From positions 219,855 to 283,854 of the forward strand of contig PBLD01000001.1 in NCBI GenBank assembly GCA_002722255.1: DNA of 64,000 nt, in the 5' to 3' direction. Source of the stretch: Winogradskyella sp. (GTDB taxonomy: Bacteria > Bacteroidota > Bacteroidia > Flavobacteriales > Flavobacteriaceae). The notes beneath the pieces are model-generated. The model searched no databases and was not told the DNA's origin. It saw only the letters and a program-made list of their open reading frames with translations. Below are positions 6,753 to 29,678 of the stretch, one piece after another (within the stretch, counting starts at the first letter, position 1; every line of letters starts with the position of its first letter). Both the position numbers and the translations under genes were made by a program.

Positions 6753-9008
6753 TTAAAACTTCATTTTCTGTATTCGCACCGCATTTAGAATTGCTAATAA
6801 TGCCACACCTACATCGGCAAATACGGCTTCCCACATTGTAGCCAGTCCGCCTGCTCCGAGTATCAGTACAATTGCTTTCACACCGAACGCCAAAACAATA
6901 TTCTGATAAACAATTTTCTTCGTCTGTTTCCCGATATTGATAGCCATCGGGATTTTAGACGGCATATCGTCCTGTATAACCACATCGGCAGTTTCAATGG
7001 CGGCATCACTTCCTAAACCACCCATTGCGATACCCGCATCACTCAATGCAATTACAGGAGCATCGTTTACACCGTCCCCGATAAAGGCTACGCTTCCATT
7101 ACGGGATTTGATTTCTTTTACTTTATTTACTTTGTCTTCGGGCAATAAATCTCCGTATGCACTGTCAATTCCTAACTGATTTGAAACGTATTGTACCACG
7201 GTATTTTTGTCCCCGCTTAACATTGTGGTTCTAACACCCATTTTACGCAGTTTGTCAACGGCGGCTTTCGCATCTACTTTAATGCTGTCAGAAATGGTTA
7301 TATATCCGGCAAACTTACCACCATAAGCGATTGCTATCACGGTATAAACAATGTTTGCCGTGTCTGCATCGTGGCTGATATTGAACTTGTCAAGCAATTT
7401 GAAATTACCTACCAACAGCTCTTTACCGTTGACAGTGGTTTTTAGCCCGTGTCCGGCAATTTCTTCCGTATTTTCAAGTTTCACTGTGGTATCTACTTCT
7501 CCCCAGTAATTGTGGATTGCGGTTGCCACAGGGTGCGTACTTTGGCTTTCTAAAACATTGACAAGGTTCAGGATTTCATCTTTGTTGAACTCCGGTTTTA
7601 TGAATACTTCCTGTACTTTGAAAACGCCCTCGGTCATCGTTCCTGTTTTGTCCATTACTACGTTTTCAACTTTGGCAAGAATATCAAGGAAGTTGGAACC
7701 TTTGAACAAGATACCGTTCCGGCTCGCTGCTCCAATACCACCGAAGTAACCTAACGGAATGGAAATTACCAACGCACAAGGACAAGAGATAACCAAAAAT
7801 ACCAATGCTCTGTACAGCCATTCGCTGAATACATAGTTATCTACAAAGAGTGCAGGCAGCAAAGTAATGGCTATTGACAGGTACACTACGATTGGCGTAT
7901 AAACTTTGGAGAATTTACGGATAAATAATTCGGTGGGTGCTTTTTGAGAAGTTGCATCCTGTACCAATTCCAGAATTTTGCTCAATTTACTATCAGCGTA
8001 GTCGGTAGTAACTTTTATCTGACTTACGGTATTCAGGTTAATCATACCTGCCAGTACAGTGTCGCCTTTACCTTTGGTGTCGGGTTTACTTTCTCCTGTG
8101 AGTGCTGCTGTATTGAATGAAGCACTATCCGAAACTAATTCGCCGTCCAAGCCTAATTTTTCGCCCGGTTTCAATTGGATAATATCGCCAATGTTAGCAT
8201 CTTCGGCTTTTATCACAACCGCTTTGCCTGCCCTAAGAACCGTAACTTCATCAGGACGTTGGTCTAACAGGGCTTTAATATTTCCTTTGGCTCTTGATAC
8301 TGCAATGGTCTGAAAAACTTCTCCTACGGAATAAAACAACATAACGGCTACTGCTTCGGGATATTCGCCTATGGCAAATGCTCCTATTGTAGCAATACCC
8401 ATTAAGAAGAACTCTGAAAAGAAATCTTTATACCGGATACTTTCTATTGCTTCTTTAATTACGGGTAGTCCGACAGGGATATAGGCAATTACATACCAAG
8501 CAATTCGTACCCATCCGGTAAACCAATCCTGTGGAAAGTAATTATCTAACCCGATGGCGATAAGCAATAAAATTAATGAGATACCCGCAGGCATAAAAAG
8601 CTGAAACGCTGTTTTGCCCTCTATGTCGTGGCTGTGGTCGTGGTCATCCCCGTGGCTGTGCCCGTGTCCGTGACTATGGTCGTGTCCGTGGTCGTGGTTA
8701 TGACCACCTTTTTTGTTATGGCTGTGTTTATGACCGTGGTCGTGATGGTGGTGGCTGTGGTCGTGATGGTCTTCCTCATCATCACAATGTCCGGCATCGT
8801 CTTCACTGCAACTGCTGCCGTCAGTGTGTCCGTGTCCGTCATCTTTATGATTGGCATCTTTTAGCAAATCTGCTGCTCCTGCTTTTTCATAAATTTTCTC
8901 TGTTCTTACACAGCACAACTGATTACCCTGCGTATCATATTTGTGTTTGTGTTCCTTTTTTTTTACAAGGTTCAGATTGTTATCTGTACTGCAACATAGT
9001 TTTGACAT
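6753..9008 (-). CDS. Heavy-metal P-type ATPase, His-rich (Zn/Cd/Pb type)
   Basis: A 751-residue P1B ATPase that pumps soft or borderline divalent cations out of the cytoplasm. Visible features: a Cys-containing start (KLCCST, QLCCVRT), a strongly His/Asp-rich tail at about residues 55-130, membrane segments, TGES, the CPC metal site in SCPCALVISIPLGYFGG (about residue 410), the phosphorylation loop DKTGTMTEG (about 451), the HP nucleotide-binding motif in STHPVATAI and GDGVNDAPV. The CPC context with SIPLGYFGGIG is the ZntA/CadA pattern rather than the CopA pattern. Instead of a CxxC HMA domain it uses the His-rich segment, common in zinc exporters. It is transcribed alone from a class 2 promoter. 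Confidence 0.92.
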   Translation of the reverse strand: MSKLCCSTDNNLNLVKKKEHKHKYDTQGNQLCCVRTEKIYEKAGAADLLKDANHKDDGHGHTDGSSCSEDDAGHCDDEEDHHDHSHHHHDHGHKHSHNKKGGHNHDHGHDHSHGHGHSHGDDHDHSHDIEGKTAFQLFMPAGISLILLLIAIGLDNYFPQDWFTGWVRIAWYVIAYIPVGLPVIKEAIESIRYKDFFSEFFLMGIATIGAFAIGEYPEAVAVMLFYSVGEVFQTIAVSRAKGNIKALLDQRPDEVTVLRAGKAVVIKAEDANIGDIIQLKPGEKLGLDGELVSDSASFNTAALTGESKPDTKGKGDTVLAGMINLNTVSQIKVTTDYADSKLSKILELVQDATSQKAPTELFIRKFSKVYTPIVVYLSIAITLLPALFVDNYVFSEWLYRALVFLVISCPCALVISIPLGYFGGIGAASRNGILFKGSNFLDILAKVENVVMDKTGTMTEGVFKVQEVFIKPEFNKDEILNLVNVLESQSTHPVATAIHNYWGEVDTTVKLENTEEIAGHGLKTTVNGKELLVGNFKLLDKFNISHDADTANIVYTVIAIAYGGKFAGYITISDSIKVDAKAAVDKLRKMGVRTTMLSGDKNTVVQYVSNQLGIDSAYGDLLPEDKVNKVKEIKSRNGSVAFIGDGVNDAPVIALSDAGIAMGGLGSDAAIETADVVIQDDMPSKIPMAINIGKQTKKIVYQNIVLAFGVKAIVLILGAGGLATMWEAVFADVGVALLAILNAVRIQKMKF

Positions 9009-9134: not shown

Positions 9135-9536
9135 CTATGCTGTGGTTTCGGTAATGAAAAAACAGCCTGTGTACCTGTCGTCAATCATTACAATAACCAC
9201 CTTTTCGTTTACGTGGTCTAAACTTTCATCGTAATAGAAGTCATAAGATTTCATCCAGGCTATATTGCCGATGATGACTTCGTGTCCGTCCACAAAACCT
9301 TTAATGCCGCAGCCGGGTATCTTTTCAAATTTATCAACCGTATAATCTGATAAAGTGATTGGCGGAAGTGCTTTGAGAATAGCTTTTGCTATGGGATGCT
9401 CTGCTTTGGATTGCAGTGCTGCCGTGTATGCCATCATCGTGTCTTTTTCGGGAACGGCACATTCAAACCTGATGACTTTAAAATTATTGTTGTAGCCTAC
9501 ATCTGTATCTTGGGTAGGGATATATTTATCTGCCAT
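9135..9536 (-). CDS. Free-standing P-type ATPase nucleotide-binding (N) domain
   Basis: A 133-residue protein matching only the N domain of P1B ATPases: the His-Pro signature in SKAEHPIAKAIL (H47, P48), the glycine motif IPGCGIKGFVDGHEVIIGN (about residues 73-91) and an end (DRYTGCFFITET) that corresponds to the ATPase segment just before the second half of the P domain. There is no DKTGT, TGD, GDGxND or membrane segment. It could be debris of a lost ATPase, but it starts with an ATG, ends exactly at a domain border and has its own intact class 2 promoter, which argues for an expressed protein. Function unknown; nucleotide or metal binding is possible. Confidence 0.7.
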   Translation of the reverse strand: MADKYIPTQDTDVGYNNNFKVIRFECAVPEKDTMMAYTAALQSKAEHPIAKAILKALPPITLSDYTVDKFEKIPGCGIKGFVDGHEVIIGNIAWMKSYDFYYDESLDHVNEKVVIVMIDDRYTGCFFITETTA

Positions 9537-9656: not shown

Positions 9657-10082
9657 TTATTTTTTCTTAACGAACCTCGAACATTCGTTACACATTCCTT
9701 TCATCACGAAATTGACACTTTCCAACAGAAATTTATCGGGAAGCTGAATGGGCGGTATGGAAATGCTTTCAAGGCAAAAGGTATTTTTACAACGGTTACA
9801 GTTAAAATGTACGTGCAGCTCGCCAACGGTACACATACAGGTATCACTGCAAATGGAATACTTCATTGAGCCGGAACCGTCATCAATCGTATGGATGAGC
9901 AGGTTGTCGTGAAAAAGGCTCAACGTTCTGAAAATGGTCGATTTATTGACAGTTTCCAATTCGGTTTCCAAATCGGTAAGGCTGAACGCTTTTTTAAAGT
10001 CAGACATTGTTTTAAAAATTAACAGCCTAACTGATGTTGGTTTTATACTCCTGTTCAATAATTTTTGTTCCAAGCGTTCCAT
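9657..10082 (-). CDS. Fur-family metal-dependent regulator
   Basis: A 141-residue Fur-family repressor. The N-terminal winged helix includes TSVRLLIFKTMSD and the recognition region NKSTIFRTLSLFHDNLL; the C-terminal dimerisation domain has the family's HVHFNCNRC (about residues 89-97) and a second CNEC near the end, giving the two CxxC pairs of the structural zinc site. It is the only dedicated divalent-metal sensor visible near the zinc-type genes, so it is the first candidate to bind the class 2 dyads 60 bp downstream of its gene and elsewhere. Its own promoter is a class 1 copper-type promoter, which would link the two circuits. Exact metal (Zn, Fe, Mn) cannot be told. Confidence 0.85.
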   Translation of the reverse strand: MERLEQKLLNRSIKPTSVRLLIFKTMSDFKKAFSLTDLETELETVNKSTIFRTLSLFHDNLLIHTIDDGSGSMKYSICSDTCMCTVGELHVHFNCNRCKNTFCLESISIPPIQLPDKFLLESVNFVMKGMCNECSRFVKKK

Positions 10083-10123: not shown

Positions 10124-10192
10124 CAAAAATAGACAACCTTGCTGCCGACAATTTTACGATATTCTTTGTTTGATTTATGATATTTACTGTTT
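10124..10192 (-). promoter_or_regulatory. Class 1 metal promoter of the Fur-family gene
   Basis: A perfect TATTTTTG -7 octamer (minus strand, 10124-10131), 26 nt, then the 35-bp box 10158-10192 with plus-strand core TTTGATTTATGATATTTAC. It begins directly after the DUF2652 stop. Confidence 0.75.
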
Positions 10193-10788: not shown

Positions 10789-11796
10789 CGTGAATAATGT
10801 TTAAGCAGCCCATAAAGATAATTGGTTTGTTTGCACAGGGGTGATATTTAGAGACGGCTTTTTAGGGAAGAAGCAATATGCGGTAAGCCCTGCTATGAGG
10901 TTTACTAAGAACCCTTTAACAGAGCGGTGTCTTGTATGTTCAATTTTGCAGATGTTCTTGAGCTCATCATTGACGGATTCTACAAGAGCTCTTTTTCTCA
11001 GCAGTATAGCATCCACATCAGATAAATTCTGCTGCTTCATATTCTTTCTCACTTTTGTAATGAGCTGTATGCCGTCCTGGAAGAGCAGTTCTGCCAGAGC
11101 CTTGGATATGTAGCCCTTATCTCCAAAGAGCTTTCCAAAGACCTCCTTGGTCATGGCCGTCATTAGTTCAATGTTCCTGTCATCCACATTGCCTTTGGTA
11201 AGGTAGAAAGACAGAAGCTCGCCTTTATCATTAATAATGAGGTGCAACTTAAAACCAAAGAACCATCCCATAGTAGACTTTCCTTTTGCAGCAATACCCT
11301 TAAAAACACGATGTTGCTTCTCGCGTTTGGAGTGGCACACACGCAACAAGGTAGAATCAATATAGTTTATGCCCCTGGACTTGCCCAAACCACGATACTT
11401 CAAATACAGCATCAAGGGCAACAAGATACGGTCCTGTCTTGCATTAAATCGCTCATAGCTTATCAGGGAAGGGAATAAGTCTGTGAGATGTTTGCAAACA
11501 TATTGGTTATAAAAATGTTTGAAGTTGGTGAACTGCCCAAAATGAAATAAAAGATAGATGCTCATCATTTCGCTATCCGATAAGTTTCCCTTTCTGTTGC
11601 GTCTTTTTACAGATAAATCCTCTAAAAGTGGACGATTTTCTAATTGTGAAGCAAATTCTATGCAAAAATCGTCCATTTCTACAAAGAATTCAGTAACTTT
11701 ATCTCTAAGCATTAGAAGTGTTTTTATTGTTTAATATACTGAAATACAGTATGATAAACTAAAATAAAAACACTTTTTTATTATCCATTATTCACG
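10789..11796. mobile_element. IS982-family insertion sequence, complete
   Basis: A 1008-bp element with one transposase gene. Terminal inverted repeats begin CGTGAATAATG (10789-10799) and end CATTATTCACG (11786-11796), 11 bp perfect. Both flanks carry TTAATTAA (10781-10788 and 11797-11804), an 8-bp target duplication; because this word is itself a palindrome it could also be read as an extension of the inverted repeats. Size, ends and transposase fit IS982. It inserted next to the terminator of the efflux operon and upstream of the DUF2652 gene. Confidence 0.88.
10801..11712 (-). CDS. IS982-family transposase
   Basis: A 303-residue DDE transposase. The catalytic triad fits Asp in INYIDSTLLRVCH, Asp in GDKGYISKAL and Glu in KRALVESVNDELKN, the pattern of IS982. 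The N terminus includes NLSDSEMMSIYLLFHFG, also typical. The frame is intact from the first to the last codon, so the copy may still be active. No accessory genes are present in the element. Confidence 0.92.
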   Translation of the reverse strand: MLRDKVTEFFVEMDDFCIEFASQLENRPLLEDLSVKRRNRKGNLSDSEMMSIYLLFHFGQFTNFKHFYNQYVCKHLTDLFPSLISYERFNARQDRILLPLMLYLKYRGLGKSRGINYIDSTLLRVCHSKREKQHRVFKGIAAKGKSTMGWFFGFKLHLIINDKGELLSFYLTKGNVDDRNIELMTAMTKEVFGKLFGDKGYISKALAELLFQDGIQLITKVRKNMKQQNLSDVDAILLRKRALVESVNDELKNICKIEHTRHRSVKGFLVNLIAGLTAYCFFPKKPSLNITPVQTNQLSLWAA

Positions 11797-17504: not shown

Positions 17505-17743
17505 ATGCTGAATAGCTTTTTTGTTATCCTTTGTTCGGGCGTAAAACGGAACGGGGTTCTCCTGCAAATAGCCGGATTAAGTGCAGTTGTTGTATCTGTC
17601 ATCTTATTTGTTGTTAAACTTTGAAAATCTTAAAATATCAGGAGCAAAGGTCGGGTTAGCGCCATAGAGCAGCCATACGAAATGACGGGTAAAAGTTGTG
17701 AAATTTACTTTTTTGAATGGCTTGTATGTGCCGTAAACAAACA

Positions 17744-17767
17744 GAGCTACTGATGTTTCAGTAGCTC
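17744..17767 (-). terminator. Hairpin after the HMA-AraC regulator
   Basis: Perfect 10-bp arms GAGCTACTGA and TCAGTAGCTC with a 4-nt loop, followed on the minus strand by a moderately T-rich run. Located about 55 nt after the regulator stop. Confidence 0.6.
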
Positions 17768-17822
17768 CGATGTCCGCATTAATAAATTCAGCGTATTGCC
17801 TTGTTGATGGATTGAAAAACCC

Positions 17823-18413
17823 TTAATGCGGGGTATGCTCTTCGTCCATTTGCATATTTAGGGTATGCTCGTGCTCCTGCTTTACCTGCCTGAAATAGCT
17901 TGATGTAAAGCCTGTGTGCTTTTTCAACTGGTTGGAAAGGTATGCCTGACTGCTGTACCCCAATAGGTGGGCAATCTCGGTCAAAGACATTTCGGTATCT
18001 GCCAAAAGCTCTTTTACCTTTTCAATTTTCCGATGAATGATGTACTTTTCAAGTGTTATTCCCTCTGCCGAAGAAAATAAGGCACTCAATGTATCGTAGT
18101 TCTTGTGCAGCTTATTACTGATTAAGGTCGTGAATTTGGTAGGCGTTCCGCTATCCAGTTGCATCCTGATACCTTTTTCTACCAACTCTTTTATCTTGTT
18201 TATCGTTTTTTGGTTTTTGTCGTACATCAGCTCAAATCCGTTGCTTTTCAGCATCGTTTTGATTGCTCCCAACTTCTGCGAAAAGTCTTCCGTATCTTTT
18301 AAAACCACTTGTCCCAGTTTTATATCCAAAACCTCAAAACCCAAAGCTGTCATTTCCTGTTCAAGAACATACATACATCTATTGCACACCATTCCTTTTA
18401 TTAATAGTGTCAT
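17823..18413 (-). CDS. HMA-AraC fusion regulator 1
   Basis: A 196-residue protein in two parts. Residues 1-70 look like an HMA metal-binding domain: MTLLIKGMVCNRCMYVLEQE has the CxxC loop (C10, C13) after the first strand, followed by the beta-alpha pattern of the fold. Residues about 120-185 are an AraC-type double helix-turn-helix (MSLTEIAHLLGYSSQAYLSNQLKKH, split across the two helices). This suggests a soluble metal sensor that binds Cu(I) or a similar ion directly and activates transcription. Its own promoter has the class 1 box, so it is probably autoregulated. A paralogue lies at 25511-26074. Inference: these proteins bind the class 1 boxes. Confidence 0.8.
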   Translation of the reverse strand: MTLLIKGMVCNRCMYVLEQEMTALGFEVLDIKLGQVVLKDTEDFSQKLGAIKTMLKSNGFELMYDKNQKTINKIKELVEKGIRMQLDSGTPTKFTTLISNKLHKNYDTLSALFSSAEGITLEKYIIHRKIEKVKELLADTEMSLTEIAHLLGYSSQAYLSNQLKKHTGFTSSYFRQVKQEHEHTLNMQMDEEHTPH

Positions 18414-18451
18414 AGCTTCTAAAAATTGTATTAATCCCTTTATTCAGGGGT

Positions 18452-18520
18452 CAAAATTCTGCATTTGCTACCTACAAAGTGTTATGATATTCCGGTTTTG
18501 TTTTGTGAAATTTTATGAAA
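18452..18520 (-). promoter_or_regulatory. Class 1 metal promoter of HMA-AraC regulator 1
   Basis: GAATTTTG -7 octamer (minus strand, 18452-18459), 26 nt, then a 35-bp box 18486-18520. This box is the most diverged (plus-strand GGTTTTGTTTTGTGAAATTT), as might be expected for a weaker autoregulatory site. It resembles the auxiliary box at 5122-5156. Confidence 0.6.
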
Positions 18521-18566
18521 ATCGGTGCAGTAACATTAAATATTATAAACTTACTTGTGTGCGGTA

Positions 18567-19637
18567 TTACTGTACCGTAACACAAACATCCGCATTCATC
18601 GGGTAGCTTTGGCAAAGCAAAATTATTCCCTCTGCAATATCCTGTTCGGTCAATGCGGCATTGTTTAGCATCCGAACTTCTCCGTCTGTCTTTACAGCCC
18701 AACAAGCTCCGCAGGTTCCGTTCTTACAAGAACTCGGCACATTGATATGATGGGCTTTCATCGCATCCAAAAGCGACTGCTTCGGCTGAACCTCAATGAG
18801 CGATGTACATTCAAAAGTCTGCGTTTCATCATTAATGTAATTTTCCTCGTAGTAGTTTACAATCACATCTTTGGCATTGCCGTCCGTTTCCATATTGCCC
18901 GCATCTATCGGTATGGGGTCGAAGTATTCCAAATGGATATGCGTTTCGGGAATGTTCAAGCCCGTTAAGGCATCCCTGTACAAATCCATCAGCCCATTGG
19001 GTCCGCAGATGTAATAATGGGCTTCGGCAACCTCGCCAACCAGTCTTTTGATGACGGAACGCAAAACAAGCAAATTGAACCTGCCTGCAACGTGGTTGAT
19101 TTTGGTTGAAACAAATTCGGGTGCGGTAAAGGAATAGCAGATGTTCAGCTTTTCATCCGCCTGCATCGCTTCCAGTTCATTCCAGAATATAGTATCTTCC
19201 GGCGATTTGTTGCTGTACACCAGTAAGGGAATTGGATTGGTGCTTTCAATGCTTTTCAGCATTGCGTATAACGGCGAAATACCGCTGCCGCCTGCCAATA
19301 GTACGATTTGGGATTGTTCTGCTATCGGTTTTTCCAAAACAAAGTTTCCAAAGGGTGCTTCTATTTCCCAGTTTTCGATATGGTCTGCATTATCCAAAAT
19401 GTAATTGCTCATTTTTCCGCCTGTGACCCTTTTAATGGTAACGGCGGGAAATTCTTCAGACGGCTTAGAACTGAACGAATACGAACGTATGAGCAGTTCG
19501 CCGTTTACCGTAAGCCTGATATTAAGGTATTGACCGGGCAGATAGGTAAATGCCTGCTGCGCTGTGTCAAAGTATATGGTAATGGTGTCTTCGGTTTCCT
19601 TTATAATTTTGTGTGTCTGCCACGTGTATTTCTTCAT
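18567..19637 (-). CDS. Flavin and 2Fe-2S oxidoreductase (ferredoxin-NADP reductase type)
   Basis: A 356-residue electron-transfer protein in three modules: FAD-binding domain with RSYSFSS (about residues 52-58), NAD(P)-binding domain with LLAGGSGISPLYAML and ICGPNGLMD, and a C-terminal plant-type 2Fe-2S ferredoxin domain with Cys at about 304, 309, 312 and 342. The order matches PaaE/Hmp-like reductase components. It moves electrons from NAD(P)H to an unknown partner. Its place between two AraC-type regulators in a copper island suggests a role in redox repair or metal reduction, but no partner oxygenase is nearby. No class 1 box lies directly upstream. Confidence 0.85.
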   Translation of the reverse strand: MKKYTWQTHKIIKETEDTITIYFDTAQQAFTYLPGQYLNIRLTVNGELLIRSYSFSSKPSEEFPAVTIKRVTGGKMSNYILDNADHIENWEIEAPFGNFVLEKPIAEQSQIVLLAGGSGISPLYAMLKSIESTNPIPLLVYSNKSPEDTIFWNELEAMQADEKLNICYSFTAPEFVSTKINHVAGRFNLLVLRSVIKRLVGEVAEAHYYICGPNGLMDLYRDALTGLNIPETHIHLEYFDPIPIDAGNMETDGNAKDVIVNYYEENYINDETQTFECTSLIEVQPKQSLLDAMKAHHINVPSSCKNGTCGACWAVKTDGEVRMLNNAALTEQDIAEGIILLCQSYPMNADVCVTVQ

Positions 19638-19677
19638 CTCTCGGTAGTTTCCTGTCTTCCATTGCTTATAAAAAGAA

Positions 19678-19707
19678 AACCTCTGCTTTAGTACACAAAG
19701 AGAGGTT
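19678..19707 (-). terminator. Hairpin after the short AraC gene
   Basis: AACCTCT and AGAGAGGTT arms enclose about 16 nt, with a T-rich tract on the minus strand (TTTTCTTTTT). Weak but well placed between the AraC gene and the reductase. Confidence 0.5.
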
Positions 19708-19744
19708 AATGAAGACTTTTATTTAAAAGTTTGCTGTTCTGACA

Positions 19745-20161
19745 TTATAATTTGTTTTGTCTATCCTGCTGTCTTTTGATGATTTCGAGCTTGTTTTTTC
19801 GTATTTGCTTAAAATGTGCAGACGTTAATCCTGTATAGGTTATTAACTGACCCGATAGTTCAGTCGGCTTTTGGTAGCCTAATGCTTTTGCTATCTGCGA
19901 TATGGATTGTTCGGTGTACACCAGTAATTCTTTTACCTTTTCGATAATACGCTTTATAAAAATAATTTCAAGGGTGATATTGCATTTAACAAGGAGCAGG
20001 TTATTCAACTGCTGGTAATCCGTTTGTAGCTCGTTAGTAATTTGGACGGTAAATGGTGCGGATGTACCTGTATCCAATCGTGTCTGAATATTCAGGTCTG
20101 CTACCCCGCAAACTTTCGTCATTATTTCCGAACAGTCGCCTGAATTTTGTTTATGTGACAT
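19745..20161 (-). CDS. Short AraC-type regulator lacking the HMA domain
   Basis: A 138-residue protein with an AraC double helix-turn-helix (QSISQIAKALGYQKPTELSGQL and LTSAHFKQIRKN). It aligns with the C-terminal part of the HMA-AraC proteins (linker LQTDYQQLNNLL corresponds to LHNDYNYLSNLF), but its N terminus is only a short segment with two separated Cys (GDC and KVC) instead of a CxxC HMA domain. Compared with its paralogues the second helix-turn-helix is altered (TELSGQLITYTG rather than AYLSNQFKKVTG). It may be a diverged co-regulator or competitor for the class 1 boxes. Confidence 0.72.
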   Translation of the reverse strand: MSHKQNSGDCSEIMTKVCGVADLNIQTRLDTGTSAPFTVQITNELQTDYQQLNNLLLVKCNITLEIIFIKRIIEKVKELLVYTEQSISQIAKALGYQKPTELSGQLITYTGLTSAHFKQIRKNKLEIIKRQQDRQNKL

Positions 20162-20222
20162 AGCTTCTTATTTATGGAACAACGTTCTAAAGTGTTTCAT
20201 ATTTTCTTTGAAATAGTTTCGA

Positions 20223-20264
20223 GAAAAAAATCCCGGAGACGCACTTTCATACATTCCCGGGATT
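20223..20264 (-). terminator. Terminator after the degenerate HMA gene
   Basis: On the minus strand AATCCCGGGA pairs with TCCGGGATT and is followed by seven T residues. Confidence 0.8.
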
Positions 20265-20272
20265 GCCCAAAT

Positions 20273-20515
20273 TTAATTGCAGCATCCGGTTGAGCAACTT
20301 GAAGCCTCATTGCTGTCGCCGCCAACTTTGTAGCCTGCTTTTTCAATCGCCTCAACCAGCTCTTCTTTTACTTCATCGCTTTCAACTGAAACAGCCAATT
20401 TTCCTGCTTCTAATTTTTCGATTTTGATGCCGTCTATGTCTTTGATAGCACCGTTTACTCTTGCCTGGCAGTGTGCACTTTGCATATCTGGTATGCTTAA
20501 TTCTACATTTTTCAT
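20273..20515 (-). CDS. HMA-like protein with altered metal site
   Basis: An 80-residue HMA-fold protein. In place of the usual CxxC loop it has QSAHC (residues 12-16), leaving one Cys and a His, and it ends in a Cys-rich tail (SSCSTGCCN). The same SxHC-type change is seen in the first HMA domain of CopA at 25420-23009 (ESEHC), so this is a family feature rather than decay. It may bind Cu(I) with Cys/His plus the tail. It has its own class 1 promoter and terminator. Confidence 0.75.
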   Translation of the reverse strand: MKNVELSIPDMQSAHCQARVNGAIKDIDGIKIEKLEAGKLAVSVESDEVKEELVEAIEKAGYKVGGDSNEASSCSTGCCN

Positions 20516-20541
20516 TTTGAACTTGTTTTTTTATTGTTCTA

Positions 20542-20610
20542 CAAATTTCCGTATTTAACGGTGAGTTACTATTATGCTATTCCTTGTAAGATTTGTGATT
20601 TTTACTGATT
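20542..20610 (-). promoter_or_regulatory. Class 1 metal promoter of the degenerate HMA gene
   Basis: GAAATTTG -7 octamer (minus strand, 20542-20549), 26 nt, then the 35-bp box 20576-20610 (plus-strand core AAGATTTGTGATTTTTAC). Confidence 0.72.
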
Positions 20611-20624
20611 TAGAAATTGCCGTA

Positions 20625-21131
20625 TTATTCTACAATGAACTTGCCTTTCATATAGATGTAATGACCAGGAAACGAGCATAGGAAATCATACGAACCTTTT
20701 GCCGGAGCAGCAAAGGTGATTTCGGCGGTTTGCCCGCCGCCAATCATATCGGTTTTGGCAATAATGGAGTTTTCCATTCCCTTTGGAATGTAGCCGTTCT
20801 CCTTAGCATCTATTGATGCATTGGCAAAGGCGTTAAAGTCTGTCCCTTGTGCAAGAATGACAACATTGTGCCCCATAGCTTCAATCGGTGCTTTGCCGAT
20901 GTGCTTCAGAATGAGCTTTACAGTTTGTCCCTCTTTGGCTTTAAGTTCGGTCTTGTCGAATTTCATATCATCTCCGCCATTAATGGTAATTACGGCTTCG
21001 TTACCAGTTTCTGCTGGTGCAACCGTTTCTTCTGTTTCGGGATAAAGGCTTTCCTTTGCCTTTTCTTCTTTTGGTGTATTGTTACAGGCAGTAAAAGCGA
21101 TTACCGACAATGCTAACACTAACTTTTTCAT
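20625..21131 (-). CDS. Azurin-like blue copper lipoprotein
   Basis: A 168-residue cupredoxin. A lipobox (AFTAC, Cys16) indicates a lipoprotein, followed by an acidic linker and the azurin domain. Type 1 copper ligands are visible: His88 in AMGHNVV, then Cys152, His157 and Met161 in FLCSFPGHYIYMKG. Azurin shuttles electrons in the periplasm; in a copper island it may also bind or buffer copper. It has its own class 1 promoter. The distance to the HMA gene downstream (with a separate promoter) shows the two are independently controlled. Confidence 0.9.
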   Translation of the reverse strand: MKKLVLALSVIAFTACNNTPKEEKAKESLYPETEETVAPAETGNEAVITINGGDDMKFDKTELKAKEGQTVKLILKHIGKAPIEAMGHNVVILAQGTDFNAFANASIDAKENGYIPKGMENSIIAKTDMIGGGQTAEITFAAPAKGSYDFLCSFPGHYIYMKGKFIVE

Positions 21132-21165
21132 TTCTATTTGAGATTTTATTTGTTTTCTGATATTG

Positions 21166-21234
21166 CAAATTTCAGCACATTACGGCAGTTCCTTATTACG
21201 CTTTTCCCTGATAGATTTGTGATATTTACTGATT
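21166..21234 (-). promoter_or_regulatory. Class 1 metal promoter of azurin
   Basis: GAAATTTG -7 octamer (minus strand, 21166-21173), 26 nt, then the 35-bp box 21200-21234 (plus-strand core TAGATTTGTGATATTTAC). Confidence 0.74.
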
Positions 21235-21244
21235 TGGAAGTGCA

Positions 21245-21282
21245 TAAAAAAACGGCAGTTCCTGTTGAATGGAACTACCGTT
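21245..21282 (-). terminator. Terminator of the copA-CDF operon
   Basis: On the minus strand AACGGTAGTTCC pairs with GGAACTGCCGTT (one mismatch), followed by a run of seven T residues. Confidence 0.85.
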
Positions 21283-21312
21283 AAGCAAACGCAATAAAGC
21301 TAAATTCGATGA

Positions 21313-21699
21313 TTATTTTTTCAGTTTATCCGCAGGTGGGTTGTAGTCTGCCAAAGCAGTTACCCTTACCGTATCTACTCCTGTAATATCCCAAGTGATA
21401 GGTATCATTACCATATATTCGCACTTCGGGCACATATCGCCCTGCGAACCTATCATTTCTTTATGCCCCGGACAACCCGTAATCAGGTGTCCTGACGCAT
21501 CAACTAATTCGCCTTTTTCATTTCTGTTTTTTGCGGTTGTTTTTTCGGCAGGTTTTTCAACCTGTTCCGTAGCGTGGTCGTGTCCATCGCCCGCTGTGTG
21601 TACGTGTCCGTCCTTTGCTGTTTTGGTATCGCCACCGCAAGATGCCAAGAGGATAGTTAACGAGGCGAATGCGCCTATCAATAATTTGCTCACTTTCAT
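21313..21699 (-). CDS. Lipoprotein with heavy-metal-binding (HMBD-like) motif
   Basis: A 128-residue lipoprotein (lipobox LLASC, Cys21) with a His-rich stretch after the anchor (DGHVHTAGDGHDHA). The C-terminal half has CPGHKEMIGSQGDMCPKC (residues 76-93), a variant of the HMBD motif CPMHPE...CPKCGM found in copper and cobalt-zinc resistance proteins, with Pro-Gly replacing Pro-Met. It probably binds metal at the periplasmic face. It is the last gene of the run copA, DUF5661, CDF, HMBD. Confidence 0.75.
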   Translation of the reverse strand: MKVSKLLIGAFASLTILLASCGGDTKTAKDGHVHTAGDGHDHATEQVEKPAEKTTAKNRNEKGELVDASGHLITGCPGHKEMIGSQGDMCPKCEYMVMIPITWDITGVDTVRVTALADYNPPADKLKK

Positions 21700-21752
21700 T
21701 TCTATTTCCTTTTTAGAGATTAAAACTTGTTTTTAAATAGTATTCAACTGAA

Positions 21753-22703
21753 TTAATGATGATGATGGTCGTGTCCTGATGGGTCTGCCTTTACATTGCA
21801 CAATACTGAATTATCGTGTGTATGGGCAGGTGTTTCTAACTGAATAGTTACGTGATGAATGTTCAGGTGTTCCAAATCGTGCTCTATTTTACGAAGCATT
21901 ACTTCACTTTCTCCAATCGTCATTTTTTCATCAACTACGGCGTGGCAGGTAAGGGCGTTCAAACCGCTTGTAATCGTCCAGATATGCAGGTCGTGAATGC
22001 CGCTGATACCGTTGGTGTTCAGGATTTTTCCAGTTACCTTTTCAACCTCAACATTCTCCGGTGTGCCCTCCATTAATACGTGTACCGATGATTTGGTTAC
22101 TAAATAACCGCTTCTCAATACCAGTATGGAAACGATAACACTTGCCAATGGGTCTGCCCATCCCCAACCAAAGAACATAATGAGCAAGGCTGCGATGATA
22201 GCACCAACCGAACCAAGCATATCGCTGATTACGTGCAGGTATGCGCCACGCATATTGAGGTTTTCTTTTACGTCAGCCCCACGCATCATTATCCAGGCTA
22301 CAAGCACATTAACGAGTAAGCCGATGAATGCCACGATGAGCATACCGCTTGATTGAATTTCCGGCGGGTTTTGGAAGCGTTCTATCGCTTCGTAAATGAT
22401 ATAAGCTGAAATCAAAATCAGCGTTGCGCCGTTGATAACCGCCGCCAGTATTTCAAATCTTTTGTAGCCGTAGGTCTTGCCGTAGTCGGCTACCTTGCTG
22501 CTGAACTTAAATGCCATCAATGCAATGAACAATGATACCGCATCGCTCAACATATGTCCGGCATCTGCTAATAATGCAAGGCTGTTTGTCAGTAATCCGC
22601 CGATTACCTCTACTGCCATATACAACGTAATGATAACCAAGCTAATGGTTAAGGTCTTTTTATTCGCACTGTGCGAGTGGCTGTGCCCGTGGTCGTGTCC
22701 CAT
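21753..22703 (-). CDS. Cation diffusion facilitator (CzcD/ZitB type)
   Basis: A 316-residue CDF zinc/cadmium/cobalt proton antiporter of the inner membrane. Six membrane segments are evident; HMLSDAVSLF in helix 2 and HVISDMLGSV in helix 5 supply the HxxxD zinc site of the CzcD type. His-rich ends (MGHDHGHSHSHS at the start, GHDHHHH at the end) and the cytoplasmic domain with IHDLHIWTI fit the family. It is cotranscribed with copA although the two pumps handle different ions, so the operon gives broad metal protection. Confidence 0.93.
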   Translation of the reverse strand: MGHDHGHSHSHSANKKTLTISLVIITLYMAVEVIGGLLTNSLALLADAGHMLSDAVSLFIALMAFKFSSKVADYGKTYGYKRFEILAAVINGATLILISAYIIYEAIERFQNPPEIQSSGMLIVAFIGLLVNVLVAWIMMRGADVKENLNMRGAYLHVISDMLGSVGAIIAALLIMFFGWGWADPLASVIVSILVLRSGYLVTKSSVHVLMEGTPENVEVEKVTGKILNTNGISGIHDLHIWTITSGLNALTCHAVVDEKMTIGESEVMLRKIEHDLEHLNIHHVTIQLETPAHTHDNSVLCNVKADPSGHDHHHH

Positions 22704-22715
22704 ATTCTTTCTTAA

Positions 22716-22988
22716 TTATTCGTTGCCTAATTGTGGAACTTCCATTCCAAAACCTTTGTACAATCTTGTATAATAATCTGAAAATGCGTTTAAGTGGGAT
22801 AAGGCAATTTTTGCCGTAAGAATAGGGTCATTACCTGTTACATTGGTTGCCTCATCTTGCAAGCCGTGTTCCAGTTCCACTTCAAGCCCTACACGAAACT
22901 CATTTAATGGAATTTTATTCCAGTCAATATTCAACTGGTCGCCAATAGATTTGGCTTGCTCTGCCGTAAAATGTGTTTTCTTTTCCAT
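22716..22988 (-). CDS. DUF5661 family small protein
   Basis: A 90-residue protein with the DUF5661 pattern: TAEQAKSIGDQLNIDW, then FRVGLEVELEHG, TNVTGNDPILTAKIALSHL and DYYTRLYKG. The start at 22988 is preferred; an ATG at 23021 would overlap the copA stop. The family is of unknown function and is found in many genomes. Its place between copA and the CDF gene implies cotranscription with metal exporters, but no metal-ligand cluster is visible. Confidence 0.75.
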   Translation of the reverse strand: MEKKTHFTAEQAKSIGDQLNIDWNKIPLNEFRVGLEVELEHGLQDEATNVTGNDPILTAKIALSHLNAFSDYYTRLYKGFGMEVPQLGNE

Positions 22989-23008
22989 TGTCTTTAATTT
23001 TTTAGAAG

Positions 23009-25420
23009 TTATTTTTTCCATTTTAAACGTAAACTATTGCTTACCACACTCACACTGCTTAATGCCATTGCCGCTCCTGCAATCATCGGGTTTAATAAGA
23101 AGCCGTTGATTGGGTAAAGAATACCTGCTGCAATAGGAATACCGATAAGGTTGTAGATGAATGCCCAGAACAGGTTTTGCTTAATGGTAGCAACGGTCTG
23201 CTTTGATAATCTTATTGCCTGTGGTATTTTGGTAAGGTCTGATGAAATGATGGTCATTTTAGCTACGTCCATTGCGATATCCGAACCTTTACCCATTGCG
23301 ATACTGACATCGGCTGTTGCTAAAGCTGTACTGTCATTGATACCATCGCCAACCATCGCTACCACTTTGCCTTGTTGTTGCAGTTCTTTTACAAAGTCGG
23401 CTTTGTGCTGTGGCAATACTTCCGCTTTGTAATGCTTGATACCTGTTTGTTGTGCAATGGCTTTGGCAGTTGCTTCGTTATCTCCGGTCAGCATATACAG
23501 GTCAATGCCCATATCCTGCATTTCTTTGATAGCTGCTACCGATGTTTCTTTGATTTTATCGGAAATAGCCACTACCGAAAGTGCCTGTTTGCTGTTTGCA
23601 AACCAAATAACGGTTTTGGACTGTTTGCCCCATTCATCGGCTTGCAGTTGCAGTTGCTCCCCAATGGTAATCTTGTTTTCAGCTAAGAGCTTTTTATTAC
23701 CTACAAAATAGGTTTCGTTATTGTGATTGGCTTTTGCTCCTTTACCTGTAATACTGTCGAAGTTTGATAACGTAGTGGTAGAAACTCCGTCCAGATGTTT
23801 AACAACGGCTTCCGCCAACGGGTGTTCCGATTGTTTTTCGATGCTCAATAAAATATCTTTGGTCGCATCGTCATTGTTCAGCCATTGGATGCCTGTAACC
23901 TGTGGTCTTCCCTCGGTAATGGTTCCGGTTTTGTCTAAAACGATAGCGTTTACTTTTTTAGCCAATTCCAGACTTTCCGCATCTTTAATCAAAATACCGT
24001 TTTCAGCACCTTTACCAACGCCCACCATAATAGCGGTTGGTGTTGCCAAGCCCAAAGCACAAGGACAAGCAATAACCAATACGGTAACGGCTGCCAATAA
24101 TCCCTGTACTACACCGTTATCGCCACCCAAAATGAACCATAGTACAAATGTCAGGATAGCAATACCCATTACTACCGGAACGAAAATACCTGCGATTTTA
24201 TCGACCAATTTCTGTACCGGAGCTTTGCTTCCCTGTGCATCCTGTACCATTTTGATGATTTGGGCAAGCATTGTTTCTTTGCCCACTTTAACCGCCTTGA
24301 ACTGGAAGCTGCCTTTTTGGTTGATTGTACCTGCAAATACCTTTTCGTTTTCTTTTTTCAGTACAGGTACAGGCTCGCCGCTTAGCATACTTTCATCTAC
24401 ATACGAATTGCCCGATACCACCATACCATCTACCGCAATTTTTTCGCCTGGCTTAACTAAGATAATATCGCCTGCGTTCACATCTTCGATGGCTTTTTGT
24501 CTTTCCGTACCGTCAGCTTCTATCACGATAACCGTTTTCGGCTGTAAGCCCATCAGTTTTTTAATAGCTGATGAGGTGTTTCCTTTGGCTTTTTCTTCCA
24601 GCAGCTTACCTAACAGAATGAATGCGATAATAACGGCGGCTGCTTCAAAATACACGTGAGCGTGTAAGCCTCTCTGATGCCAAAAGTCCATAAACAGCAT
24701 ATTGAATACACTGAATATATAAGCAATACCTGTACTCAATGCTACGAGGGTATCCATATTGGCAGAACGGTGTTTTGCCTGTTTCCACGCATTAATAAAG
24801 AAGTCTTTACCTAACCAAAGGACTACCGGAGTGGAGAATGCCCACATTATCTCATTACCGTAAGGCATATCCATAAAGAACATACCGATAATGACTACCG
24901 GAAGCGATAGGATTACCGCCCAAATGGTTTTGTTTTTAAGTTTTCTGAATTTTTCGGCGTGGATAGCTTCTAATGTTTCCTGCTGCTTGTTTTCGTCTTC
25001 AAGCAGTAAGTCATAACCGCCATCCTGTACCGCCTTTCTGATTTGCTCGGAATTGGTCATATTCGGCAGGAACTCCACGGTAAGGTTGCCCGTACCAAAG
25101 TTTACCGAAGCATCTACCACGCCCGGAGCGTATTTTACCATACTCTCGGCACTGCCCGCACAAGATGCGCAGGTCATACCCAATACGGGATATGTATGTT
25201 TAACGGTTGGAACGCCGTAGCCTAAATCTTTAATCGCTTTTACAGCTTCTCCTACTACCTCGTTATCATTTACGGTAATAGCCGCCCTGCGGTTATTTAG
25301 CTCTACTTTGTGGGTTTCTACGCCTTTTACCTGTGCCAGTCCTTTTTCGACTATCAATGCACAGTGTTCGCTTTCTACATCCTCTAAAGGAATGTAAACT
25401 GTTTCTTTATTTGTTGCCAT
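23009..25420 (-). CDS. copA: Cu(I)-exporting P-type ATPase CopA
   Basis: An 803-residue P1B-1 ATPase that pumps Cu(I) from the cytoplasm. Two N-terminal HMA domains are present: the first is degenerate (ESEHC, about residues 16-20), the second is normal (GMTCASC, C84 and C87). The membrane metal site is ACPCALGLATPTA (about residue 452), the phosphorylated Asp is in DKTGTITEG (about 494), the HP motif is in SEHPLAEAV, and the hinge is GDGINDSTALATADVSIAMG. The CPC context is the copper pattern. It heads the operon copA, DUF5661, CDF, HMBD and has a class 1 promoter whose box reaches into the 3' end of the neighbouring regulator gene. Confidence 0.95.
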   Translation of the reverse strand: MATNKETVYIPLEDVESEHCALIVEKGLAQVKGVETHKVELNNRRAAITVNDNEVVGEAVKAIKDLGYGVPTVKHTYPVLGMTCASCAGSAESMVKYAPGVVDASVNFGTGNLTVEFLPNMTNSEQIRKAVQDGGYDLLLEDENKQQETLEAIHAEKFRKLKNKTIWAVILSLPVVIIGMFFMDMPYGNEIMWAFSTPVVLWLGKDFFINAWKQAKHRSANMDTLVALSTGIAYIFSVFNMLFMDFWHQRGLHAHVYFEAAAVIIAFILLGKLLEEKAKGNTSSAIKKLMGLQPKTVIVIEADGTERQKAIEDVNAGDIILVKPGEKIAVDGMVVSGNSYVDESMLSGEPVPVLKKENEKVFAGTINQKGSFQFKAVKVGKETMLAQIIKMVQDAQGSKAPVQKLVDKIAGIFVPVVMGIAILTFVLWFILGGDNGVVQGLLAAVTVLVIACPCALGLATPTAIMVGVGKGAENGILIKDAESLELAKKVNAIVLDKTGTITEGRPQVTGIQWLNNDDATKDILLSIEKQSEHPLAEAVVKHLDGVSTTTLSNFDSITGKGAKANHNNETYFVGNKKLLAENKITIGEQLQLQADEWGKQSKTVIWFANSKQALSVVAISDKIKETSVAAIKEMQDMGIDLYMLTGDNEATAKAIAQQTGIKHYKAEVLPQHKADFVKELQQQGKVVAMVGDGINDSTALATADVSIAMGKGSDIAMDVAKMTIISSDLTKIPQAIRLSKQTVATIKQNLFWAFIYNLIGIPIAAGILYPINGFLLNPMIAGAAMALSSVSVVSNSLRLKWKK

Positions 25421-25446
25421 ATTTCGATTGCTTTGTTTTCACATTG

Positions 25447-25515
25447 CAAAGTTGGCAACAATAAGGGGGAGTTCTATTGTGAAATTATGGGTTTGATTTG
25501 TAAGATTTACTTAAA
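25447..25515 (-). promoter_or_regulatory. Class 1 metal promoter of copA
   Basis: CAACTTTG -7 octamer (minus strand, 25447-25454), 26 nt, then the 35-bp box 25481-25515 (plus-strand core TTTGATTTGTAAGATTTAC). The last bases overlap the end of the HMA-AraC gene at 25511. Confidence 0.7.
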
Positions 25516-26074
25516 CCTTATCCAAAGGCTTGCGCTTGTCTTCCCGTATCTGCTTGAAATGGCTTGGTGTAAGTCCGGTTACTTTCTTGAACTGGTTGCT
25601 CAAATACGCCACGCTCGAATAATTCATACGGTCGGCAATTTCGCTTAAAGACAGCTCATCATATACCAAAAGCTCTTTTACCTTTTCTACTTTCTGTGCG
25701 ATAAAATATTTCTCAATGGTCGTGCCCTCAATATCGGAAAACAGGTTGGAAAGATAGTTGTAGTCGTTGTGCAGCGCATCGCTCAATACATCCGAAAGAT
25801 TGGTTTTGGCATCATTGTCCTGATGGTGCACCAAATCAATGATAACATTTTTTATCTTCTCAATCATCCGGCTCTTTTTGTCGTCAATGACCTGAAAGCC
25901 CAAAGGGTCTAAAACATTTTCCAATGCTTCACGCTCTTTTGTGGTTAAATCTTTTTTAAGGGTTATTTCGCCCAACTTTATATTGTTAGCCTCTATACCG
26001 AGCTTGTCGAGTTCGTTTTGAACTACGAGAATACAACGGTTGCAGACCATATTTTTGATAAATAATTTGCTCAT
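25511..26074 (-). CDS. HMA-AraC fusion regulator 2
   Basis: A 187-residue paralogue of the protein at 17823-18413: N-terminal HMA-type domain with MVCNRC (C11, C14), a linker DYNYLSNLFSDIEGTTIEKY, and a C-terminal AraC double helix-turn-helix (LSLSEIADRMNYSSVAYLSNQ and LTPSHFKQIRED). It lies directly upstream of copA in the same direction, the classic place for a dedicated regulator. Its own promoter has a perfect TAAATTTG -7 box but no class 1 box, so it may be expressed constitutively and act as the primary copper sensor, while copy 1 is inducible. Confidence 0.8.
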   Translation of the reverse strand: MSKLFIKNMVCNRCILVVQNELDKLGIEANNIKLGEITLKKDLTTKEREALENVLDPLGFQVIDDKKSRMIEKIKNVIIDLVHHQDNDAKTNLSDVLSDALHNDYNYLSNLFSDIEGTTIEKYFIAQKVEKVKELLVYDELSLSEIADRMNYSSVAYLSNQFKKVTGLTPSHFKQIREDKRKPLDKV

Positions 26075-26119
26075 ATTTCCCTAAATCACTGTTCATATTA
26101 TTGCATAAATACGCAAAGA

Positions 26120-26127
26120 CAAATTTA
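26120..26127 (-). promoter_or_regulatory. -7 box of HMA-AraC regulator 2
   Basis: Perfect TAAATTTG on the minus strand, about 45 nt before the start codon. The upstream DNA has no class 1 or class 2 box. Confidence 0.55.
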
Positions 26128-26287
26128 GGATTAAAATTTAAGTATTTATTGATTGTGAGCGACTAAGTGATACGGGTAAGGTTTTTTACAGGAGAAAACA
26201 GGCATAAATGGTTCAAAATCTTCCCCATTGTAGGGGCATATTGGCAGTTAAATCCCTGTTTATTAATAACATTTGTGCAGGTACACT

Positions 26288-26315
26288 GTATCAGTAACAA
26301 AGTATCAGTAACAAA
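26288..26315 (+). repeat. Tandem 14-bp direct repeat upstream of rteC (right copy)
   Basis: GTATCAGTAACAAA occurs twice back to back (26288-26301 and 26302-26315), ending 12 nt before the rteC start codon. It would lie in the 5' untranslated region or overlap the translation start region and could be a regulatory or protein-binding site. The left rteC copy has no such repeat. Confidence 0.6.
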
Positions 26316-26327
26316 ATCCTCCCTACT

Positions 26328-27173
26328 ATGAGAAAATCATTAGGCAATATTGTTAGCGAAATTCAGGAGAAGGAACGGAAACTATCACTTACGTGCTCGG
26401 GGCTGATTGAAGAGGCTTTTCAAATGACGGTTTATCTTCAGGAGCTACTGGTTTCGTCAAAAGAATGTGTTTTAAATTCGGGCTTTGTCAATGAGGCAAA
26501 AGAGATTGAGTTTTTCAAAATGGTTAAACCCCAAATCCTGGGCAAACTCATCTACTACAATAAGCTCTACCGGATAGAAACCGCTTGCCCGGTTAATAAC
26601 GGGAAAATGTATCATACTTATTTCGCTAACCATTTACAGGAGTTAAAGATTGAATTTAGGGAACATATCTGCAACTCCCATTTTTATAGGTACTACCGTT
26701 CGGGCAGGGTGGATAAGGATAACGAATACTTTAAGCGAGGGCAGATAAATTACCTCGATGGGCTTAACAGTTACGTCTTTGAAATCGACCCGCAATTCTC
26801 TACCTATTACGATTACAAAGTAGCCCGCATCATCGCTAATGACCTATTATACGCCTACCTCTTAACCAAAATCAACCCCGAAGATAATCTCGATGTATAT
26901 TTTCAGAACGCAGAAGGTATCAAAGAACTTTCTTGGACGGACAGCAAAAACGCACTGGTTGAGCTGATGTATGCCCTGTACGCATCGGGCGCTATTTCAG
27001 GTGGTAAAATCGGCATCCGAAAGCTCACTGCCATTTCGCAGGTCTTATTCCGAATTTCACTGACCGATGTGCATCACGCATTCCATAGAATGAAAACCCG
27101 TGCAGGCTCACGGACATTATTTTTAGACCAGTTGAAACAGGCTCTTGAAGAATATATGGATAAGGATTTATAA
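26328..27173 (+). CDS. rteC: RteC domain protein (right copy)
   Basis: A 281-residue RteC-family regulator with the landmarks EFFKMVKPQILGKLIYYNKLYRIET and DYKVARIIANDLLYAYL (each split in the protein by short variable segments). In CTnDOT, RteC activates the excision genes. Here the next genes on the same strand are two HTH proteins of the excisionase type, so this copy matches the canonical order and is probably the working ICE regulator. No RteA/RteB two-component pair is present in the window. Confidence 0.9.
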   Translation: MRKSLGNIVSEIQEKERKLSLTCSGLIEEAFQMTVYLQELLVSSKECVLNSGFVNEAKEIEFFKMVKPQILGKLIYYNKLYRIETACPVNNGKMYHTYFANHLQELKIEFREHICNSHFYRYYRSGRVDKDNEYFKRGQINYLDGLNSYVFEIDPQFSTYYDYKVARIIANDLLYAYLLTKINPEDNLDVYFQNAEGIKELSWTDSKNALVELMYALYASGAISGGKIGIRKLTAISQVLFRISLTDVHHAFHRMKTRAGSRTLFLDQLKQALEEYMDKDL

Positions 27174-27197
27174 ATAGTCCGTCCGTAAAGGGTTTGA

Positions 27198-27228
27198 AAG
27201 CAATACACATTCCGTATTGCTTTTTTTT
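27198..27228 (+). terminator. Terminator after rteC (right copy)
   Basis: AAGCAATAC and GTATTGCTT arms with a 7-nt loop and a run of eight T residues, 25 nt after the rteC stop. Confidence 0.9.
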
Positions 27229-27377
27229 GTGCCTGCACTTACCCATATATGCCAATTGGCAAATGGACTTATTTCCATAACCGAAAAATGGGAAAATCTA
27301 CCGAAACTCTTATTTAATAAGGGTTTACGACAAATTGTAAAATTTTCAAAAAAACGCTTTTTCAATTGGCAAGCATT

Positions 27378-27410
27378 GGCAGACAAACACTGCCACAGTT
27401 CTGAATTTTG
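27378..27410 (+). promoter_or_regulatory. Promoter with GGCAG inverted repeat before the HTH pair
   Basis: Inverted repeat GGCAG, 7 nt, CTGCC (27378-27394), followed by GAATTTTG (27403-27410), a one-mismatch -7 box 26 nt before the start of the first HTH gene. Further TTGGC and TGCCAATTGGCA words occur at 27250-27380. Unlike the other ICE operons this promoter lacks the 10-bp phased GCC array, so it may be controlled by RteC. Confidence 0.45.
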
Positions 27411-27436
27411 TCCTGTGAACATTAAACAGCAGTGCT

Positions 27437-27790: not shown

Positions 27791-27802
27791 AGGCGTACTC
27801 GT

Positions 27803-28111
27803 ATGAATATCGACAAAATGGAATTTGTGGCGTGGATGGAACGCATAATGGATAGGCTTGACATTCTCGGCAACCACATAGACGATTTACAAAAGAAGCG
27901 CAACAGCATAGACGGCGAGGAATTACTGGATAATCAGGATTTATTGCAAATGTTGAAAATAAGTAACCGTTCCCTGCAACGGTATCGCTCCATCGGCAAG
28001 CTCCCTTATTATACCATTAGCGGAAAACTGTATTACAAGCTGTCCGATGTGCATCAGTTCATCAGGGAAAGTTTTAACCCTCCCTTGCCCAAACTGGATG
28101 CCAATAAGTGA
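27803..28111 (+). CDS. Helix-turn-helix protein, excisionase-like (pair 1, second)
   Basis: A 102-residue protein with LLDNQDLLQMLKISNRSLQR and YRSIGKLPYYTISGKLYYKLSD, the HTH_17 fold plus wing. It is a paralogue of the preceding protein. The last 12 bp of the gene overlap the first unit of the phased GCC array that controls the next operon, a compact arrangement in which the pair may bind DNA at its own 3' end. Confidence 0.8.
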   Translation: MNIDKMEFVAWMERIMDRLDILGNHIDDLQKKRNSIDGEELLDNQDLLQMLKISNRSLQRYRSIGKLPYYTISGKLYYKLSDVHQFIRESFNPPLPKLDANK

Positions 28112-29672: not shown

Positions 29673-29678
29673 TACGAT

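Follow-up and report, generated by a model that had tools for sequence, protein, structure and literature searches.

HMA-like domains fused to AraC regulators as probable Cu(I)-responsive activators in Bacteroidota

Two genes on the minus strand of the window, a stretch of 64,000 nucleotides from a Winogradskyella sp. contig (PBLD01000001.1), lie in a mobile metal-resistance island and encode proteins in which an HMA-like domain carrying a MxCxxC motif is followed by a canonical AraC double helix-turn-helix (HTH). We hold with good confidence that both proteins, W1 (196 aa, positions 17823 to 18413) and W2 (187 aa, positions 25511 to 26074), are cytosolic Cu(I)-responsive activators of the AraC type and members of a one-component copper-regulator family of Bacteroidota. 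A first-pass annotation made from the letters alone had described this build in both open reading frames, and both are present as described. It had also held that the arrangement occurs twice; the two copies are real but the count was too low, as the genome carries five full-length HMA-AraC copies, three of them outside the window (two of these near-identical to each other), together with one HMA-less copy inside it.

The AraC part of each protein was recognized directly by Pfam, with HTH_18 above its cut-off at residues 99 to 176 of W1 (positions 17886 to 18119, minus strand; E 1.8e-15) and residues 97 to 175 of W2 (E 1.6e-14). HTH_18 was also found, at E up to 1, in 37/37 members of an alignment consisting of W1, W2 and 35 relatives collected by whole-protein similarity (A3), and structures of MarA, SoxS and the AraC DNA-binding domain are among the Foldseek matches of the regulator. 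The HMA-less copy, a 138-aa AraC frame at positions 19745 to 20161 (minus strand), lacks the MVCxRC motif as well as the HMA domain and scores 28.8 bits with HTH_18, below the cut-off of 33.6. Its frame is open at 136 to 148 aa in related islands (L013-L026, L031 and L055), and it may possibly act as a metal-blind competitor for the same operators.

The N-terminal part, residues 1 to 65 of W1 (positions 18219 to 18413, minus strand, delimited by fold and profile), was modeled by AlphaFold2 with a mean pLDDT of 88.8 for the full-length protein and 86.7 for residues 1 to 72 alone. The predicted elements (strand 2-6, helix 11-23, strands 28-32 and 35-38, helix 44-57, strand 61-65) give the βαββαβ order, which is the HMA-like fold that the first-pass annotation had expected. 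The ferredoxin-like fold of an HMA domain (PF00403) was likewise indicated by two structural comparisons. Foldseek with residues 1 to 72 ranked a copper chaperone first (2qif, probability 1.00, E 0.011) and listed 3fry (CopA), 6ff1 (CsoZ) and 2kt2 (NmerA) among its first ten matches along with unrelated proteins, no match reaching E 0.001. VIA-align gave a Z score of 8.5 to Ccc2a (1fvq) and about 8 to many HMA domains, with unrelated ferredoxin-like folds scoring up to 8.1.

We take as decisive for the predicted HMA-like identity a profile of 41 N-terminal domains (residues 1 to 72) that was compared with PDB sequences. It returned 23 sequences at E up to 1, all of them HMA domains or chaperones and nearly all copper proteins; the lowest E value, 7e-8, belongs to a chain with six repeats and sums over all of them, and among chains that have one HMA domain the lowest is 7e-4. 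Scans with single sequences missed the domain, which was recognized through profile and fold. The Pfam HMA model left W1 and W2 unmatched even at E 10, short of the curated PF00403 cut-off, and matched 20/37 members of A3 weakly at E up to 1 (best 1.8e-4), while the NCBIfam scan gave just a short CopZ match to residues 2 to 25 of W1 (E 1.2e-4), far under the cut-off. The N-terminal domain is therefore described here as HMA-like by its profile and as lying outside Pfam HMA membership.

The motif in the first loop reads M8-V9-C10-N11-R12-C13 in W1 (codons of C10 to C13 at positions 18375 to 18386, minus strand) and is the same in W2 (C11 to C14, positions 26033 to 26044, minus strand). M-V-C-x-R-C is present in 41/41 members of one alignment (A1), which were partly found via this motif itself. 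In A3, no change is seen at M8, V9, R12 or C13, while C10 is replaced by serine in 2/37, leaving both cysteines in 35/37.

A predicted operator lies upstream of copA, and its anatomy suggests that the regulators work by activation. In the window, copA encodes a Cu(I)-type P1B ATPase (positions 23009 to 25420, minus strand; TIGR01511, E 6e-186, above cut-off), and its operator, located by matrix scan and by its -7 spacing, occupies positions 25474 to 25511 (minus strand) and touches the W2 stop codon. Of 110 copA-locus sequences given, 99 had both genes, and regulator and copA are on the same strand in all 99. The consensus AGTAAATCTTACAAATCAATTCCATAATTCCACAATAG precedes copA in 76/76 close relatives in which copA was found (49 distinct sites). 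It is a direct repeat with a period of 21 bp (half-sites TyACAAATC and TnYRYAAYA), a predicted site of the type bound by AraC/XylS regulators, whose direct half-sites lie about two helical turns apart. In five loci (four distinct) the regulator gene is 1.5 to 2.3 kb distant and the operator still stands before copA, indicating that it belongs to the copA promoter; L087 was left out of this argument, since it is far from its best regulator match but the sequence just before its copA resembles the closing part of another regulator gene. In 16/99 copA loci, mostly of distant relatives, the operator matrix fails; there the motif has drifted or differs.

Promoters of Bacteroidota have a -7 box, TAnnTTTG, with TTTG as its core. 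Among 60 distinct copA sites, counted with the 16/99 low-scoring loci left out, TTTG begins 30 bp after the second half-site in 51 and 29 bp after it in 7, and is absent in 2. This geometry is fixed, and the box itself is weak: 57/58 distinct copA promoters have CA or GA in place of TA. Upstream of W2-like genes, consensus TAnnTTTG occurs in 40/61 distinct sequences against 3.35 expected, and the W2 promoter carries it as TAAATTTG at positions 26120 to 26127 (minus strand, read from the sequence). A weak -7 box together with a site adjoining the -33 region is the anatomy of an activator-dependent promoter, and the promoter geometry thus supports the activation, as opposed to repression, that had been proposed for these regulators.

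The operator was also sought blindly, as the pattern YACAAATC-N8-AATNNYRYAA-N26-TTTG, in 395 Bacteroidota genomes. Exact matches occurred in 14 places in 9 genomes, and 9/9 of these genomes contain the family, against a base rate of 183/395. One exact locus was examined in each genome: the gene that follows, which starts 24 to 36 bp downstream of the site and was judged from its first 60 residues, was copA-like, CopZ-like or an HMA membrane protein in 9/9. A control pattern with the half-sites 3 bp closer had no exact match in the 395 genomes and 16 one-mismatch places in 15 genomes, and a reversed pattern had 9 places at one mismatch. The true pattern with one mismatch allowed was found at 43 places. 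The 30 genomes concerned include 22 that have the family and 8 that lack it, and a copper gene followed the site in just 4 of the 21 one-mismatch loci that were read (L213, L214, L220 and L241). Because noise at one mismatch is appreciable, the co-occurrence of operator and regulator is weak there, and our conclusions lean on the exact sites. At one of the one-mismatch loci (L212), the site lies directly 3' of an HMA-AraC gene and is followed, by reading, by the start of a TonB-dependent receptor gene, possibly a copper-controlled outer-membrane gene.

Scanning both strands of the window with the copA matrix revealed eight sites, all on the minus strand and all inside the metal island. Besides the copA site, they precede a 73-aa CopZ-like protein with CxxC (gene 1520 to 1741, HMA by reading; site 1805 to 1842), a second 73-aa CopZ-like protein with CxxC (gene 4775 to 4996, HMA by reading) that stands ahead of multicopper oxidase (MCO) genes and has a tandem pair (proximal site 5055 to 5092, distal site 5115 to 5152), a Fur-like gene (9657 to 10082, by reading; site 10151 to 10188), W1 (site 18479 to 18516), a small HMA protein (20273 to 20515, PF00403 above cut-off; site 20569 to 20606) and an azurin/plastocyanin-like lipoprotein (20625 to 21131, PF00127 E 3.7e-16; site 21193 to 21230), all of these features being on the minus strand. 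A weaker ninth site (17672 to 17709, minus strand) precedes RND efflux genes (17387 to 11880, RND by reading). The standard 30-bp spacing to TTTG is seen in 8/9 window sites, the RND site included, the exception being the distal site of the tandem; the Fur-like promoter differs from the rest in having, by reading, the consensus TA in its -7 box.

The window copA site is identical to a training site of the copA matrix, and the other seven sites score between 23.3 and 7.1; the highest score in 20 Markov-shuffled windows was 7.9. By its score of 7.1 the azurin site could be a chance match, and the case for it depends on its -7 spacing. Scores of the seven island sites with a second, balanced matrix are circular, as those sites trained it, and their independent scores are those of the copA matrix. 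The RND site was in the training set of neither matrix and scored -2.9 with the copA matrix and 16.8 with the balanced matrix, the best off-island score being 8.5.

Several features of the island deserve mention in their own right. The copper-type operator before the Fur-like gene hints that a second metal regulator is controlled by copper. The multicopper oxidase (1918 to 4277, minus strand) is split into two overlapping reading frames of 391 and 397 aa, compared with one 745-aa frame in a relative, and is apparently broken. By reading, the island also contains a metal ATPase fragment (HAD, 133 aa) and a transposase of the IS type (9135 to 9536 and 10801 to 11712, minus strand).

The first-pass annotation had proposed that one copy is autoregulated and the other has a plain promoter, and the predicted operators bear this out: a site lies 65 bp upstream of W1 and none lies before W2. 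With duplicates included, the operator is found upstream of 7/11 W1-like rows (5/9 distinct) as opposed to 0/130 rows of W2 and other regulators.

A mechanism may be outlined as follows. The HMA-like domain would take up cytosolic Cu(I) through the cysteines of MxCxxC, and the long helix at residues 66 to 88 would relay the signal to the AraC domain by a change in the arrangement of HMA-like domain, linker and AraC domain. On the strength of their co-location, HMA-AraC regulators probably bind the predicted operator, with two subunits on the direct half-sites 21 bp apart, adjoining the -33 region of a promoter with a weak -7 box (CAnnTTTG or GAnnTTTG). The bound regulator would then recruit RNA polymerase to a predicted regulon of copA, CopZ-like chaperones, azurin, multicopper oxidase, RND efflux and W1 itself.

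How W1 and W2 would divide this regulon can be read in two ways. As parallel regulators, W2 would serve copA only, and W1 would control its own gene and those for periplasmic proteins and chaperones, perhaps responding to a different copper level or redox state. Two operator flavors in the window, a copA type (CTTACAAATC..AATTTCACAA) and an island type (TCACAAATC..GAATATCRYAA), agree with such a division, as does the separate clade (100/100) that W1-like genes form in a tree of 87 sequences. However, W1 and W2 have, by eye, closely similar recognition helices, and the flavors are distinguished by sequence; we regard this reading as plausible but tentative. Alternatively, the two could form a cascade, in line with the primary sensor and amplifier suggested by the first-pass annotation. 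W2, made constitutively, would sense copper first and, once loaded with it, activate W1; W1 would in turn act on its own promoter and strengthen the response across the island. The consensus -7 box and absent operator of W2-like promoters speak for this order, along with the operator ahead of W1 and of its distinct relatives. The site is nevertheless missing from 4/9 distinct W1-like upstreams, and the site before W1 itself belongs to the island type, which suggests that W2 may serve copA only. Given the two flavors and the type of W1's site, a cascade is possible, though doubtful enough that we do not favor it over parallel regulators.

Uptake of Cu(I) by the regulators themselves, as outlined above, can also be weighed against a less direct route. 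HMA domains pass Cu(I) to each other through docking faces, and the same operator stands before CopZ-like genes; the HMA-like domain could therefore get its copper from, or dock with, CopZ or the metal-binding domains of CopA, and so report chaperone loading in place of free Cu(I). The CxxC would still be required in that case, and we consider this route unlikely.

The genomic surroundings of the family tie it to copper. The co-occurrence with copA that the first-pass annotation had put forward as a check was counted: a copA homologue lies in the flank of 78/80 close relatives, 13/20 sampled MVCxRC loci and 9/14 divergent MVCxRC loci. In relatives with serine in place of the first cysteine (MVSxRC) the count is 1/21, and that one is at 25% identity. 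Four copper markers (CPC ATPase, HMA CxxC, YxCPMHP and MCO) were then compared within 6 kb, leaving out L137 (a 3.3-kb contig) and grouping L129, L187, L188 and L189, which the central-motif pattern missed, on other analyses. At least one marker was present at 27/33 MVCxRC loci versus 0/21 MVSxRC loci (p 1e-9), and the CPC ATPase alone at 19/33 versus 0/21 (p 5e-6); the other 6/33 MVCxRC loci have none of the four within 6 kb. No copA match was found in the stretches around the three other full-length copies of the Winogradskyella genome (0/3), where copper neighbors were named by reading: a CusB-like gene adjoins one copy (L122, in a stretch nearly identical to L124), where the automatic markers gave nothing, and a third copy (L123) has an MCO motif, a 71-aa CxxC protein and an RND pump beside it.

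In the tree, the MVSxRC sequences (19 rows) form one clade (100/100) nested inside MVCxRC, although the bootstrap is not fully settled. The nesting of a single clade implies that the first cysteine was lost once, along with the copper linkage, and the contrast between the two groups therefore counts as one evolutionary event and not twenty-one. Such a joint loss would be predicted if copper binds at CxxC. The clade itself (L141 and L172-L191), with its first cysteine gone and no copper neighbors in 6 kb, has cupin-like, kinase-like and response-regulator-like genes as neighbors (clustered and named by reading), each at 3 to 5 of the 21 loci. That the ligand is another metal (Ag(I), Au(I), Zn or Cd), or that the HMA part is a mere dimerization relic, is very unlikely: the island does have a CDF transporter and a Zn/Cd-type ATPase at 6753 to 9008 (ATPase by reading), but the predicted targets across the phylum are a Cu-type ATPase, CopZ and related HMA genes, with azurin and MCO added in the window, and the only clade to have lost the first cysteine is the one with no copper neighbors.

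HMA-AraC proteins are a phylum-wide family and not a rarity of one island. With the MVSxRC clade included, matches at E up to 1e-10 were found in 183/395 Bacteroidota genomes, a count that could take in a few HMA-less copies. The 31 plasmid records with at least 80% query coverage are Bacteroidota, mostly Hymenobacter, except for two weak Enterococcus matches (30% identity), and the annotated names of the plasmid homologues are generic (AraC family, helix-turn-helix, response-regulator). The island segment at 17603 to 34074 of the window is 99.4 to 100% identical over 12.7 to 16.5 kb to contigs of Zunongwangia pacifica and Muricauda/Allomuricauda (L013-L015), which points to very recent transfer between genera.

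We incline, by a modest degree, to the broader reading that HMA-AraC takes the place of CueR and CsoR in much of Bacteroidota, as the cytosolic one-component copper sensor that has been missing there. On this view, an AraC activator would have captured a chaperone domain, and the family would later have yielded a copper-blind daughter clade through the loss of one cysteine and a chaperone-less half-size partner on the same mobile island. If this is true, the family fills a copper-regulator gap in a phylum that is frequent in the gut, in soil and in the sea, and offers a testable operator together with a natural cysteine-loss control. It would also provide a modular copper switch, ready for use, that mobile elements carry from one genus to another. 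Among the open-licence PMC papers listed, judged by title and opening of the abstract, none describes an HMA-AraC copper regulator, though absence there does not equal absence in print, and HMA-AraC proteins are probably copper sensors of an apparently undescribed kind. According to a 2023 survey (PMC10141476), the few marine Bacteroidota that it covered have only two-component and ECF copper regulators, and CueR is not reported outside Pseudomonadota.

The known system nearest in role is CueR (described in PMC10141476), a cytosolic one-component Cu(I) sensor, as is predicted for HMA-AraC, that activates copA and an oxidase. CueR differs in its MerR winged helix, its long -10/-35 spacer and its lack of an HMA domain; MerR-type models were unmatched by W1 and W2 in Pfam and NCBIfam scans, and among 51 Bacteroidota genomes CueR was above cut-off in none, with weaker MerR-type matches in 12. 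CsoR and CopY are one-component Cu(I) sensors of copA operons that act as repressors. They have the one-component, copA-linked role that is predicted for HMA-AraC but are repressors with unrelated folds, and the CsoR Trns_repr_metal domain (PF02583) was unmatched by W1 and W2 in Pfam and differs in topology from the AlphaFold2 model. PF02583 proteins of the CsoR type occur in 17/51 Bacteroidota genomes, 3/26 with HMA-AraC versus 14/25 without it (Fisher p 0.001), a split confounded by lineage because ten of the 14 CsoR genomes are of one bacterial family.

In architecture, the nearest relatives are other proteins with an AraC domain. AraC of the arabinose operon has a double HTH that binds direct half-sites 21 bp apart adjoining the -35 region, and an N-terminal sugar-binding cupin; HMA-AraC has the same double HTH and, as predicted, the same half-site layout, with the cupin replaced by the HMA-like domain. 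Ada/AdaA places an N-terminal metal-binding cysteine site before the AraC domain, a zinc site that takes methyl groups from DNA. Ada/AdaA and, by prediction, HMA-AraC combine a cysteine metal site with an AraC domain, but the zinc site of Ada is unrelated to HMA. The N-terminus of HMA-AraC resembles CopZ, Atx1 and the metal-binding domains of CopA in its fold and its MxCxxC; those domains carry copper, whereas that of HMA-AraC forms part of a transcription factor, and the R of its CxRC motif is invariant.
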